The translations under genes and the position numbers were made by a program. A DNA stretch of 40,200 nt, taken from the IMG/VR virus record IMGVR_UViG_3300023237_000027, positions 1 through 40,200 of that record; one strand, given 5' to 3'. The DNA comes from a virus. Below, piece by piece: positions 24,155 to 31,604 of the stretch. How positions within the stretch are numbered: position 1 is the first letter of the stretch; every line of letters starts with the position of its first letter. The notes under the pieces were generated by a model. That model saw only the letters and a program-made list of their open reading frames with translations, searched no databases and had not been told where the DNA came from.

Positions 24155-24162
24155 TATAAATA
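24155..24162 (+). promoter_or_regulatory. T4-type late promoter for the portal gene
   Basis: Perfect TATAAATA, 24 nt before the gp20 ATG at 24187. Confidence 0.75.
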
Positions 24163-27534: not shown

Positions 27535-28632
27535 ATGTTAGAAGCAATCAAACCATTGCTAGATAGCGGAATTATTAACGAAGAAACAGAGATAGCAATT
27601 AATGAGGCGTGGGAAGCAAAACTTTCTGAAGCTAAAGAAATTGTTCGTTCTGAACTCCGTGAAGAGTTTTCGCAACGCTATGAACATGACAAATCCGTCA
27701 TGGTTGAGGCTTTAGACAAAATGGTCAACGAGTCTTTATCTAAAGAACTTCAGGAATTCGCTGAAGACAAGAAGAGATTAGCAGAAGATAGAGTTAAGTA
27801 CAACACAAAGATGTCTGAAACAGCAGATAAGTTTAAAGGCTTCTTAGTTGGTAAACTAACCGATGAACTCAAAGAGTTACGTGAAGACCGCAAGACAATG
27901 GCTGGTACAATGGCCAAAGTTGAGCAGTTCGTTATTCGTCAACTTGCTGAGGAACTTAAAGAATTCGAACAGGACAAGAAAGCCATTGTGGAAACAAAGG
28001 TCAGACTTGTTACTCGAGCGAAGGAAAAGTTAGATGAACTTAAGACTAAATTCGTTGCTAGATCTTCCGCATTAGTTAAAGAAACAGTTGCTACAAATCT
28101 AGAGTCTGAGTTAACTCAACTCAAAGAAGACATCCAAACAGCTCGTGAGAATATGTTTGGGCGTAGATTGTTTGAAGCATTTGCAGGCGAATTTGCTGGT
28201 ACTCACTTAAATGAGAATCAGGAGATTAAAAAACTTATGAGCATTATTGCTCAGAAGGATGTGAAACTTGCAGAAGCTACACAATCACAAGAGGAAGCTA
28301 AGAAATTAGTTGAATCTACAAAGAGCGAAATTAAAGTCATTAAGGAATCTAGTGAGAGAAAAGAAACACTCAATGGATTACTTAGTACATTAAACAAAGA
28401 GAAAGCCACGGTAATGCGTGACTTGCTCGAATCAGTGCAGACCGATAAACTTGGATCTGCATTTGACAAGTATTTGCCAGCAGTACTTAATAATTCCAAG
28501 ATCGAACACGCCGCAAAGCACGTTCTTTCAGAGAACAAAAAAGTAGTAACTGGTGATAAAATCACTGCAAAAGACGTTGTTAAGGAAGATGGCACTAATA
28601 TCATCCAACTAAAGCGTTTAGCAGGGCTATAA
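27535..28632 (+). CDS. 22: Prohead core scaffold protein gp22
   Basis: This is a highly charged, almost entirely helical and coiled-coil protein of 365 residues. Its N-terminus (IKPLLDSGIINEETEIAINE) and region FGRRLFEAFAGEFAGTHLNE are typical of gp22 scaffolds. Between them are repeated helices (LTDELKELREDRKTM, LAEELKEFEQDKKAI). gp22 fills the prohead and is removed by gp21 during maturation. Its place between gp21 and gp23 is the standard T4 order. It is longer than T4 gp22 (269 aa), mostly through the extra coiled coil. Confidence 0.92.
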   Translation: MLEAIKPLLDSGIINEETEIAINEAWEAKLSEAKEIVRSELREEFSQRYEHDKSVMVEALDKMVNESLSKELQEFAEDKKRLAEDRVKYNTKMSETADKFKGFLVGKLTDELKELREDRKTMAGTMAKVEQFVIRQLAEELKEFEQDKKAIVETKVRLVTRAKEKLDELKTKFVARSSALVKETVATNLESELTQLKEDIQTARENMFGRRLFEAFAGEFAGTHLNENQEIKKLMSIIAQKDVKLAEATQSQEEAKKLVESTKSEIKVIKESSERKETLNGLLSTLNKEKATVMRDLLESVQTDKLGSAFDKYLPAVLNNSKIEHAAKHVLSENKKVVTGDKITAKDVVKEDGTNIIQLKRLAGL

Positions 28633-28663: not shown

Positions 28664-29848
28664 ATGTCAGATAATTTACTAGAAGGCCGTTGGGGTGAGA
28701 CCAAAGAAGCTCTGTTAGAAGGTTTACAAGGTTCCCGCCGTACAACAATGTCTTCCATATTGGAAAACACAAGAAAGCACTTAGCAGAATCCGCCACTGG
28801 CGGTGCAACAACTAGTGGTAACGTTGCAACTCTTAACCGAGTTATTCTTCCCGTAATTAGACGAGTTATGCCAACTGTTATTGCCAACGAAATTGTTGGA
28901 GTACAGCCAATGACTGGTCCAGTTGCACAGATTCACACATTACGTGTGCGTTACGCTGAAACAGCAACATCTACAGCAAGTGCACCGTTTAATACAAACA
29001 CAACATCAGGTGACGAAGCACTTTCACCATTCAAAATTGCCACAGCATACTCTGGTTCAACATCAACTGGTCGTGCAGACAGCACAGCATCATTTGAAGG
29101 TTCACCAGGACGTAAGATCAACGTTCAGATCTTAAAGCAAGTTGTTGAAGCTAAAACACGTAAGCTATCAGCTCGTTGGACATTTGAAGCCGCACAAGAC
29201 GCACAGTCAATGCACGGTTTAGATGTTGAAGCAGAGATTATGGCTGCATTAGCTCAAGAGATCACTGTTGAAATTGACCAGGAAGTACTTGGTTCTTTAC
29301 GTAGCCTTGCGGCAACTGAAGAAACATACAACCAGGCAGCAGTATCTGGTACAGCTACTTACGTTGGTGACGAGCATGCCGCATTGGCAGTTCTTATCAA
29401 CAGAACAGCAAACAAGATTGCACAAAGAACAAGACGTGGTGCAGGTAACTGGGCAGTTGTTTCCCCAGCCGCACTAACAGTTTTACAGAGTGCAACAACA
29501 TCAGCTTTCGCACGGACAACTGAAGGCACATTTGAAGCACCTACAAACACTAAGTTTGTTGGTACACTAAATGGCGCAATGAAAGTTTATGTTGATAGCT
29601 ATGCAAGTGACTCAACCGCAGTTCTAGTTGGTTATAAGGGTTCAAGCGAGGCAGATGCCGCGGCTTTCTATTGCCCATATATTCCATTAATGAGCAGTGG
29701 AGTTGTTCTTGATCCAGCAACGTTTGAGCCAGTAGTTGGCTTTATGACTCGCTACGGATACGTAGAGCTCACAAATTCCGCTTCATCGCTCGGTAACGCC
29801 GGCGATTATCTGGGTGAAATTGCCATAAGCAATTTGTCCTTCTCATAA
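28664..29848 (+). CDS. 23: Major capsid protein gp23
   Basis: The protein has the gp23 pattern: an N-terminal arm, then LNRVILPVIRRVMPTVIANE, IVGVQPMTGPVAQIHTLRVR, a central KLSARWTFEAAQDAQSMHGL, and the C-terminal PLMSSGVVLDPATFEPVVGF with MTRYGY. LAE-S at residues 40-43 fits the gp21 cleavage consensus ([LI]-x-E), so the mature protein probably starts at Ser43. At 394 aa it is clearly shorter than T4 gp23 (521 aa), so the extra insertion domain of T4 is probably absent. A strong AGGAG site precedes the ATG. A terminator follows 50 nt after the stop, giving an isolated high-output 3' end. Confidence 0.94.
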   Translation: MSDNLLEGRWGETKEALLEGLQGSRRTTMSSILENTRKHLAESATGGATTSGNVATLNRVILPVIRRVMPTVIANEIVGVQPMTGPVAQIHTLRVRYAETATSTASAPFNTNTTSGDEALSPFKIATAYSGSTSTGRADSTASFEGSPGRKINVQILKQVVEAKTRKLSARWTFEAAQDAQSMHGLDVEAEIMAALAQEITVEIDQEVLGSLRSLAATEETYNQAAVSGTATYVGDEHAALAVLINRTANKIAQRTRRGAGNWAVVSPAALTVLQSATTSAFARTTEGTFEAPTNTKFVGTLNGAMKVYVDSYASDSTAVLVGYKGSSEADAAAFYCPYIPLMSSGVVLDPATFEPVVGFMTRYGYVELTNSASSLGNAGDYLGEIAISNLSFS

Positions 29849-30100: not shown

Positions 30101-30108
30101 TATAAATA
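30101..30108 (+). promoter_or_regulatory. T4-type late promoter at the 5' edge of the riboswitches
   Basis: Perfect TATAAATA. T4-type late transcripts start about 6-7 nt after the box, which here falls at the first base of the first aptamer (about 30114). The RNA would therefore begin with the sensor. Confidence 0.72.
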
Positions 30109-30113
30109 TATAT

Positions 30114-30166
30114 ACGTTCAGGCAATAGCCCGGAAGTAGACTTTACTATTAGTCGAAGGAACGCAT
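30114..30166 (+). promoter_or_regulatory. Glutamine riboswitch aptamer 1 (glnA / Downstream-peptide class)
   Basis: P1 is CGTTC (30115-30119) with GAACG (30159-30163). P2 is GGC-AATA-GCC. The conserved CGGAAGTAG follows at 30131-30139. P3 is GACT/AGTC, and the conserved CGAAGGAACGCA closes the fold. These are the hallmark sequences of the L-glutamine-binding glnA and Downstream-peptide RNA families. This copy is slightly more divergent than the second one. Confidence 0.82.
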
Positions 30167-30170
30167 TATC

Positions 30171-30224
30171 ATCGTTCATCTCGAAAGAGACGGAAGTAGG
30201 TAATGGTTACCGAAGGAACGCACC
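30171..30224 (+). promoter_or_regulatory. Glutamine riboswitch aptamer 2 (glnA / Downstream-peptide class)
   Basis: P1 is CGTTC (30173-30177) with GAACG (30216-30220). P2 is TCTC-GAAA-GAGA with a GNRA loop. The conserved ACGGAAGTAGG follows at 30190-30200. P3 is GGTAA-TGG-TTACC, followed by GAAGGAACGCACC. All expected helices and conserved loops are present. It begins only about 5 nt after aptamer 1, so the two form a tandem. The CACC at its 3' end (30221-30224) can pair with GGTG just after the downstream ribosome binding site (30241-30244), a possible switching helix. Confidence 0.88.
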
Positions 30225-30249
30225 TAACTGTAAGAAGGAGGGTGTTGAC

Positions 30250-30351
30250 ATGACATTGTGGACTCGATATTGTAGAGCTCATGCACAACAAGACTATCAT
30301 AAGGCTTGTATGCTTAAATTGTTTCTGTTACGTGCATTTGTACACTACTAA
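30250..30351 (+). CDS. Riboswitch-controlled mini-protein (33 aa, 'downstream peptide')
   Basis: ATG 30250 opens a 33-codon ORF that begins MTLWTRYCRAHAQQDYHKAC and ends LRAFVHY-stop. A very strong AAGGAGG (30235-30241) sits 8 nt upstream, the best ribosome binding site in the neighbourhood. The peptide is basic (Arg, Lys and His throughout), with two Cys, several aromatic residues and a hydrophobic middle (MLKLFLL). Downstream-peptide RNAs in cyanobacteria and marine sequences are named for exactly this kind of short ORF. In cyanobacteria some glutamine riboswitches control small basic glutamine-synthetase inactivating factors. Whether this peptide acts on a host enzyme is speculation. A terminator follows 17 nt after the stop, giving a self-contained late transcript of about 270 nt. 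Confidence 0.68.
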   Translation: MTLWTRYCRAHAQQDYHKACMLKLFLLRAFVHY

Positions 30352-30368
30352 TAAGTAAGCATCAATTT

Positions 30369-30395
30369 AAGGGATCGAAATTTGATCCCTTTCTT
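30369..30395 (+). terminator. Rho-independent terminator after the mini-protein
   Basis: AAGGGATC (30369-30376) pairs with GATCCCTT (30384-30391) around a 7-nt loop, followed by TCTT. It closes the riboswitch transcript before the next late promoter. Confidence 0.75.
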
Positions 30396-30409: not shown

Positions 30410-30417
30410 TATAAATA
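30410..30417 (+). promoter_or_regulatory. T4-type late promoter for the 144-aa structural gene
   Basis: Perfect TATAAATA (context TATAAATACTACTG). The start codon is 115 nt away. Confidence 0.7.
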
Positions 30418-30418
30418 C

Positions 30419-30532
30419 TACTGTTCAGTAGTTAGGTAAACAGGAAAATTTTTCCTGTCCAAACTGACTTATGCTGTTCCCACAGCGTAGCGACTAGAAC
30501 TCGCATTGGACTTCTTAACAAGGAGAAAACAA
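30419..30532 (+). other. Structured 5' leader of about 110 nt
   Basis: After the late promoter the leader holds an ACTACTG-TT-CAGTAGT inverted repeat and an ACAGGAAA/TTTCCTGT hairpin (30440-30458). A CTGT...ACAG stem follows near 30474-30485. An AAGGAG site precedes the ATG at 30533. I do not recognise a riboswitch family. Confidence 0.4.
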
Positions 30533-30967
30533 ATGGGAAGACCTATTAAAACTGCCGAATCAGTTGGCGGCAATCTTAAAGTAGCATCAGCATCAACAGC
30601 ATTACCAATTGGTTCAAATGCTCTAAGTGGCAATCAAATAGTTATGAAAGCATACATTACAGGCGGTAGTGTTCAAGACACAACACTAGTTCTACAAAAA
30701 GGAACAAAGAAATTCCGTTGTACAAATAGTGATGGAACCGAGTCTCTGCAATTAACATCAGTAGTGCATGGTTCATTAGCACAAGGACAATGTCAGATTA
30801 CTGGTACAGATAGTGCCGGTGGTACTTACTTTGCAAGTAAAATTACAGGACGTCATTTTCATGTAGGCAATCTTGGAACAGGATCACAATTTGCAGTTGG
30901 TGATAAGGCTTTATTAGTCGCATCAGGACCAGAAGCAAATGTAAGTGTTTCAGTACCGAACAGTTAA
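30533..30967 (+). CDS. Small virion-type protein after gp23 (144 aa)
   Basis: The start was set at ATG 30533 because AAGGAG lies 8 nt upstream. The longer frame from TTG 30506 has no such site. The product begins MGRPIKTAESVGGNLKVAS, an opening common among small structural proteins of marine T4-like phages. It continues as a beta-rich, Gly/Ser/Thr-rich sequence (LVLQKGTKKFRCTNSDGTES, then FASKITGRHFHVGNLGTGSQ). No enzymatic motif is visible. It is probably a virion surface or decoration protein, judged from its own late promoter and its place after gp23. Function is not established. Confidence 0.68.
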   Translation: MGRPIKTAESVGGNLKVASASTALPIGSNALSGNQIVMKAYITGGSVQDTTLVLQKGTKKFRCTNSDGTESLQLTSVVHGSLAQGQCQITGTDSAGGTYFASKITGRHFHVGNLGTGSQFAVGDKALLVASGPEANVSVSVPNS

Positions 30968-31019: not shown

Positions 31020-31604
31020 ATGACACCAATAGCATTTATTATCGGAAACGGACGTAGCAGACTAGATGTAGACCTTAATACACTACGAGGTCGAGGCATG
31101 ACCTACGGCTGTAATGCACTATACCGGGACTTTGTTCCTGACGTACTGATAGCAACTGATAACGGTATTGCTAAAGAAATACAAGAATCAGGATATGCTA
31201 ACACAAATAGATTCTATACCAGAAGACCACAAGAAGGATCAGGAGCGAAACCTATAGAATACAATTATGGATGGTCAAGTGGACAAGTTGCACTAAGTTA
31301 TGCCGCCCACGCAAAGCACAGTTATTTGTATATGATTGGATTTGATTTAGCAGGGCTTGACAGCAATACCAAGTTTAATAATGTATATGCAGGCACTGAC
31401 CACTATAAAAGATCGGAAGAGCGAGCAACATTTTACGGTAACTGGTTAAAACAGATACATCAAACAGCTACAGAGTTTAAAAATACAAGGTTTGTTAGGG
31501 TAATTTCAGAGTCTGGATATGAGCCACCAGAGCTTGGTCCTTTAAAAAACCTGCAACACATGTCTACAACTGACTTTAAAACTGTACTAAATACATTGAA
31601 ATAG
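31020..31604 (+). CDS. DUF115/MptE-like glycan-associated protein (194 aa)
   Basis: The N-terminal part reads AFIIGNGRSRLDVDLNTLRG, then MTYGCNALYRDFVPDVLIAT with a following DNGIAKEI. This is the nucleotide-sugar-binding-like pattern of DUF115 / 6-hydroxymethylpterin pyrophosphokinase MptE-like proteins, often linked to sialic acid or other surface glycans. Residues 85-130 (GWSSGQVALSYAAHAKHSYL, then YMIGFDL) complete the fold. The protein may act on host or virion sugars, perhaps in one pathway with the NeuD-like acyltransferase at 20298. The ATG directly follows a terminator T-run and has no ordinary ribosome binding site. The start is kept because family members begin with this strand. 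Confidence 0.68.
   Translation: MTPIAFIIGNGRSRLDVDLNTLRGRGMTYGCNALYRDFVPDVLIATDNGIAKEIQESGYANTNRFYTRRPQEGSGAKPIEYNYGWSSGQVALSYAAHAKHSYLYMIGFDLAGLDSNTKFNNVYAGTDHYKRSEERATFYGNWLKQIHQTATEFKNTRFVRVISESGYEPPELGPLKNLQHMSTTDFKTVLNTLK

Follow-up and report, generated by a model that had tools for sequence, protein, structure and literature searches.

In the phage DNA analyzed here, a late promoter, a tandem glutamine riboswitch and a gene for a small protein form one unit, which is well supported, and T4-like phages, probably infecting heterotrophic bacteria, carry related cassettes as a large, ordered class. The window, by which we mean the whole stretch analyzed, is a 40.2-kb IMG/VR virus record, in which aptamers were called with the Rfam covariance models at a gathering cut-off of 35 bits; the cassette, the capsid gene and the next late leader with its gene are on its plus strand. 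Two glutamine aptamers were found at positions 30113–30167 (RF01739, 48.4 bits, E = 9.5e-8) and 30171–30224 (RF01739, 61.1 bits, E = 3.1e-11), each complete over positions 1–53 of the 53-position model. P1 is formed by CGTTC (30115–30119) and GAACG (30159–30163) in aptamer 1 and by CGTTC (30173–30177) and GAACG (30216–30220) in aptamer 2, with the 9-nt linker CATTATCAT (30164–30172) between them. The Rfam search gave no match to RF01704 (Downstream-peptide, type 2) at the gathering threshold in the window, so that both aptamers are of the type 1 (glnA) form, and they would be expected to bind glutamine. An earlier note on this DNA had described back-to-back 'glnA/Downstream-peptide' aptamers and proposed a search with both covariance models: the pair of aptamers and the glnA label were borne out by the two RF01739 matches, and the Downstream-peptide label was not. 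Fold prediction for the window paired CAUUAUC of the linker with GGUAAUG of P3; checking the listed leaders by eye, we rejected this inter-aptamer pairing as a general switch.

The T4-type late promoter box TATAAATA is matched exactly at 30101–30108, with 6 nt separating its end from P1 of the first aptamer; given T4 spacing, the RNA is expected to start at around 30114, roughly where that aptamer begins. Following aptamer 2 are CACCT, an A-rich loop, AGGAGGGTG, which leads to the ATG at 30250, the ORF and a hairpin. The Shine–Dalgarno (SD) sequence AGGAGG occupies 30236–30241, and the 33-codon ORF (30250–30351, stop codon 30349–30351), whose product is MTLWTRYCRAHAQQDYHKACMLKLFLLRAFVHY, belongs to a W-x-x-Y-C family with homologues in phages and Burkholderiales. 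The predicted transcript, of about 280 nt, runs to a terminator-like hairpin, AAGGGATC-loop-GATCCCTT (30369–30391), which has a weak U tract and is not called by a strict terminator scan; relatives' cassettes carry strong terminators with strong U tracts at this position. The earlier note had proposed a stand-alone late transcript of about 270 nt that is opened by tandem glutamine aptamers and carries one small protein, and our analysis agrees with it on the perfect promoter placing the RNA start at aptamer 1, on the ribosome binding site and on the 33-codon ORF; its terminator stands as a hairpin backed by the relatives, with the weak U tract and the negative strict scan counting against it. 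A 26-nt match was also seen in Roseobacter N4-like phages.

The arrangement recurs among phages. A two-aptamer tandem pattern matched 114 stretches in IMG/VR, with L005 and L018 left out as pattern matches inside coding repeats, and 110 tandem cassettes (the window included, a few of them truncated) could be parsed as a late box followed by aptamer 1, the linker, aptamer 2, the SD hairpin and a small ORF. Exactly two aptamers per record were found in 10 related virus records (63–289 kb), and a nearly identical cassette is present on a 289-kb contig. A pattern of one aptamer with a short leader matched at least 119 stretches, and among the matches listed in the newly fetched loci there were at least 99 single-aptamer forms and 2 tandem ones. 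Since single-aptamer cassettes are this numerous, the tandem form is one arrangement within a larger phage class; its two aptamers may sharpen the response to glutamine, as the earlier note proposed. Every one of the 71 distinct tandem cassettes from phages has TAAATA in the 45 nt that precede aptamer 1 (13% expected from Markov controls), and 60 of them have NATAAATA (4.7% expected); the distances of the late box to aptamer 1 cluster at 6–7 nt or 21–25 nt. TTGACA was found in none of these 71 cassettes; among the bacterial small-ORF cassettes described below, 10/25 have TTGACA and 2/25 TAAATA. Cassettes of the 21–25 nt class (L009, L015, L017, L021, L025, L116 and others) have a small stem-loop ahead of aptamer 1, for example GTAAC-GCAA-GTTAC, and this element, often GCAA-looped and placed at the predicted RNA 5′ end, may protect the transcript. 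Across the window, TATAAATA occurs four times on the plus strand and never on the minus strand, with about 3.3 expected, which is not significant by itself.

Directly 5′ of the window cassette stand T4-like portal, protease and major capsid genes, the last of these (28664–29848; PHROG 138, 4.1e-103) being its immediate neighbour. A TATAAAT box at 28628 precedes the capsid gene, and a TATAAATA box at 24155 precedes the portal gene. The best-listed relatives of the window capsid come from T4-like phages that infect Sinorhizobium, Vibrio and Pseudomonas (64–68%); with these as the nearest capsids and Burkholderiales as the source of the peptide's bacterial homologues, a cyanophage origin was rejected. 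The capsid gene is the immediate same-strand upstream neighbour in 48 contigs including the window (gap 67–453 nt), which span capsid identities of 31–100% and peptide families I, II, III and V, and in 16 other contigs this neighbour is a long fibre-like structural ORF. Downstream of the cassette, a second TATAAATA late box (30410–30417) would serve the next transcript, and between it and a 144-aa gene without a family (ORF 30533–30967) lies a freshwater-2 RNA (30448–30535; RF02980, 64.7 bits) in the leader of that late gene. Of 15 related phage loci, 12 have this orphan RNA family in the late leader after the cassette (L006, L010, L026, L033, L038, L052, L075, L090, L100, L109, L110 and, twice, L113), and it looks like a phage late-leader element. 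A protein of about 195 aa (GNGxSR...GCNALYR), encoded at 31020–31604 in the window and just 5′ of the cassette in L048, L068 and L084, also recurs in different phages.

The small proteins under phage cassettes are all basic and 32–65 aa long, and they belong to unrelated families. The window peptide (pI 9.6), predicted to form a single helix over residues 3–32 (pLDDT 90.7), is a member of family III (W-x-x-Y-C), for which a mean pN/pS of 0.46 indicates purifying selection. Family I is characterized by MTKYQ...NPFYP, family II is DUF4278 with YRGV repeats (Pfam E 7e-8 and 3e-9), families IV and V begin MNRFDHL and MNYRDFE, respectively, and further families exist. Profile comparison of family I with family III and with family II detected no homology, and homology was rejected for these pairs. 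The window peptide matched no family in Pfam or PHROG, DUF4278 included, and thus falls outside the IF17/DUF4278 group that other phage cassettes of the class carry. Searches of the PDB with a bacterial family III homologue, and for structural relatives with an approximate IF7 query, gave no match. Family I C-termini read NPFYP, NPYYP or NPWY (L057, L072, L116 and similar), and some members contain YRGVRY, as DUF4278 does, which may reflect cargo recombination.

Small-ORF cassettes are also present in bacteria. Among the matches listed in a scan of genome contigs were cassettes in SAR86 (including family I), SAR92/Porticoccaceae (DUF4278) and Burkholderiales (family III), together with SAR11-type tandem aptamers in front of genes that we take, from reading their protein starts, to be amt-like and glnA-like. 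The Burkholderiales family III leaders are nearly identical to that of the window, with linker CATTATCAT, which is the same in most phage and bacterial copies of this family, and flank CACCTAACTTTAAAAAGGAGGGTG, and they precede a homologous peptide, MNLWTQYCRRQARDDYYKAQMVRAMLLRALKAYDS. The family III cassette occurs in 8/17 genomes of one marine Burkholderiales family, and an order-wide sample of 300 Burkholderiales genomes yielded six positives, all from that family. Sigma70-like promoters replace the late promoters in these homologues. The family III cassette tree separates a mainly bacterial from a mainly phage group (support 100/99) and requires at least two changes between phage and bacterium; a chromosomal copy in one Burkholderiales genome (G021) carries TATAAATA and is nested in the phage clade (97/90). 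Exchange of the cassette between phages and bacteria is shown at the level of sequence, and the position of the G021 copy ties the phage group to this Burkholderiales family, short of proving infection; the family is the likely host group of the phage. The phage-type cassette of G021 (contig 16, 7688–8090; L254/L266) has a late box, and its SD sequence and ORF are duplicated in tandem. Its contig carries genes that are presumably glnB-, nadE-, ftsK-, lolA-, rarA- and serS-like, named by reading the proteins, with PII assigned by match.

In the window, CACCT (30221–30225), which begins at the first base past P1 of aptamer 2, can pair with GGGTG (30240–30244), whose arm overlaps the SD sequence. 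Equivalent pairs in relatives include CAUCU/AGAUG, CAAUC/GAUUG, CACC/GGUG and CACUC/GAGUG. In 45 distinct leaders, 99.1% of cells were paired, compared with 87.7% after shuffling, and the covariation score was 0.480 compared with 0.229 (0/500 shuffles); versions of the alignment that were slid gave 27–68% paired. This covarying hairpin is the likely expression platform, being the best candidate for translational control. Because thermodynamic folding yields the hairpin whether or not the aptamers are folded (SD accessibility in phages 0.31 and 0.30 with and without the aptamers forced), it does not predict ON or OFF, and we dropped the attempt to derive the direction from thermodynamics. We infer an ON switch, in line with the small-protein cargos published for the type-1 glutamine riboswitch, which are ON (PMC6316151). 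The opposite direction, in which P1 of the second aptamer, with glutamine bound, would stack on the SD hairpin, block translation and confine the protein to times when glutamine is scarce, is in our judgement rather unlikely. It draws on the hairpin abutting P1 in all 45 short leaders aligned, where coaxial stacking could stabilize it, and on the SAR11-type tandem copies, which precede amt-like and glnA-like genes that one would expect to be shut off when glutamine is plentiful. However, in SAR11-type loci (L117, L119, L122, L125 and others) CATGC of the linker can pair with GCATG in the flank after aptamer 2, a downstream platform that is, as far as its pairing goes, different from that of the small-ORF cassettes; the ON precedent and the indifference of the folding also argue against an OFF switch.

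GlnE (PF03710) is missing in all eight cassette-bearing genomes of the Burkholderiales family, in which glutamine synthetase and PII are present, and it was found in seven of nine cassette-free relatives (chance 36/19448 = 0.0019, ignoring phylogeny). All four Porticoccaceae with RF01739 also lack it, compared with 34/112 overall (chance 0.0075, ignoring phylogeny), and the two associations combine to 1.7e-4, a figure that ignores phylogeny and comes from genomes of which many are incomplete assemblies, streamlined genomes being prone to lose many genes. Three further cassette genomes (SAR86 and SAR92, the SAR92 one already counted among the four Porticoccaceae) are without GlnE. Two relatives, G020 and G026, have neither GlnE nor cassette, and are either incomplete assemblies or regulate glutamine synthetase in a third way. 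GlnE is not known to be the regulator in cyanobacteria, Synechocystis with gifB/IF17 included, and the cassette bearers here lack it. In cyanobacteria, glutamine binding to the type-1 riboswitch switches on translation of IF17, a glutamine-synthetase inactivator of which DUF4278 is the N-terminal part (PMC6316151).

From the loss of GlnE, this cyanobacterial precedent and the DUF4278 members of the class, we arrive at a reading for which the chances appear evenly balanced: the cassette would be a host-derived, glutamine-gated nitrogen brake, translational and under late control, whose small protein acts on glutamine synthetase or a close partner. Two type-1 aptamers would form a translational glutamine riboswitch over a small, basic, helical protein; in GlnE-less bacteria, riboswitch and protein would probably substitute for GlnE as a brake on glutamine synthetase, much as IF17 does. 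Having been exchanged with bacteria, among which leader and protein are shared with the likely host group, the cassette would be expressed in the phage from a late promoter, on an mRNA whose 5′ end lies at aptamer 1 and whose synthesis coincides with that of capsid protein, at a time when protein breakdown or phage metabolism could raise glutamine. High glutamine would then favour translation, the protein would bind glutamine synthetase or a close partner, and nitrogen assimilation would fall. Both the target and the benefit to the phage are putative.

It is rather unlikely, in our assessment, that the riboswitch serves a different target, such as PII, an ammonium transporter, a transcription factor or the translation machinery, so that the product is a glutamine-gated host-takeover protein. 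Peptide families under a shared leader have no detectable homology, which does not imply a single common target, and in the bacterial loci examined no nitrogen gene (glnA, glnB or amt) is adjacent to the cassette, the glnB-like gene of G021 being about 4.5 kb away. Nevertheless, GlnE is missing in two separate lineages, which together with the IF17/DUF4278 precedent points to glutamine synthetase, and the 60 distinct peptides of the tandem phage cassettes all have a basic pI (9.2–11.1), arginine being named among the residues in which IF-like proteins are rich (PMC6316151). That the cassette is an unused passenger of a host segment is very improbable: isolated phages in INPHARED gave no match to families I and III, implying that T4-like phages at large do not need it, but the late box sits at preferred distances in 71/71 cassettes, aptamers and SD hairpin are retained, the ORF is under purifying selection and phages that have diverged greatly share the location next to the capsid gene. 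Equally improbable is that the short, terminated and highly structured RNA is itself the product, as a sponge or small RNA, with an incidental ORF, given that the ORF is conserved as a protein with its frame and SD sequence (pN/pS as above) and that many different ORFs stand under one leader.

A broader form of the nitrogen-brake reading, which we hold tentatively and consider somewhat less than even in likelihood, is that GlnE-less marine proteobacteria brake glutamine synthetase with riboswitch-run peptides, several of them unrelated, in an IF17-like manner, and that T4-like phages repeatedly took, swapped and returned such circuits, expressing them from a late promoter downstream of the capsid gene to throttle host nitrogen assimilation during virion assembly. 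If the proteins do inhibit glutamine synthetase, this would account for the braking of nitrogen assimilation in marine bacteria without GlnE and would provide a concrete route by which phages may control it. A 2018 review considered glutamine riboswitches restricted to cyanobacteria, and type 2 to marine picocyanobacteria (PMC6316151); the class described here is large, with a recurrent position, a locked late box, many cargos and bacterial counterparts.

Compared with Synechocystis gifB/IF17 (RF01739), the window cassette shares the sequence and structure of the aptamer and the control of a small basic protein, and differs in its tandem aptamers, short SD hairpin and late phage promoter, the gifB promoter being NtcA-controlled; its peptide is not homologous to IF17 by Pfam, and the bacterial hosts here are probably heterotrophic. 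The glnA RNAs that occur in tandem in marine bacteria and metagenomes (SAR11-type; Weinberg 2010, PMC2864571) likewise have two complete aptamers, but those examined here control large nitrogen genes with another platform, whereas the window has a 33-aa protein and an SD hairpin. The Downstream-peptide motif (RF01704) also places a glutamine aptamer before a small ORF, although the window has no match to it. Riboswitches are described as rare in phages (PMC9004378). Phage-encoded glutamine aptamers are present in Melnitz, Mosig, AG-345-P14 and cyanophages, that of Melnitz being located at a two-piece tmRNA gene, unlike the capsid-adjacent cassette of the window; a tandem, capsid-adjacent, late small-protein cassette is not described in the available text of these reports (PMC9004378, PMC9602691). 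Finally, the cassette resembles phage auxiliary metabolic and regulatory genes in placing host-derived metabolic control under a phage promoter, and differs from them in that the unit would be a complete sensor and effector in which the host promoter has been replaced by a late box.
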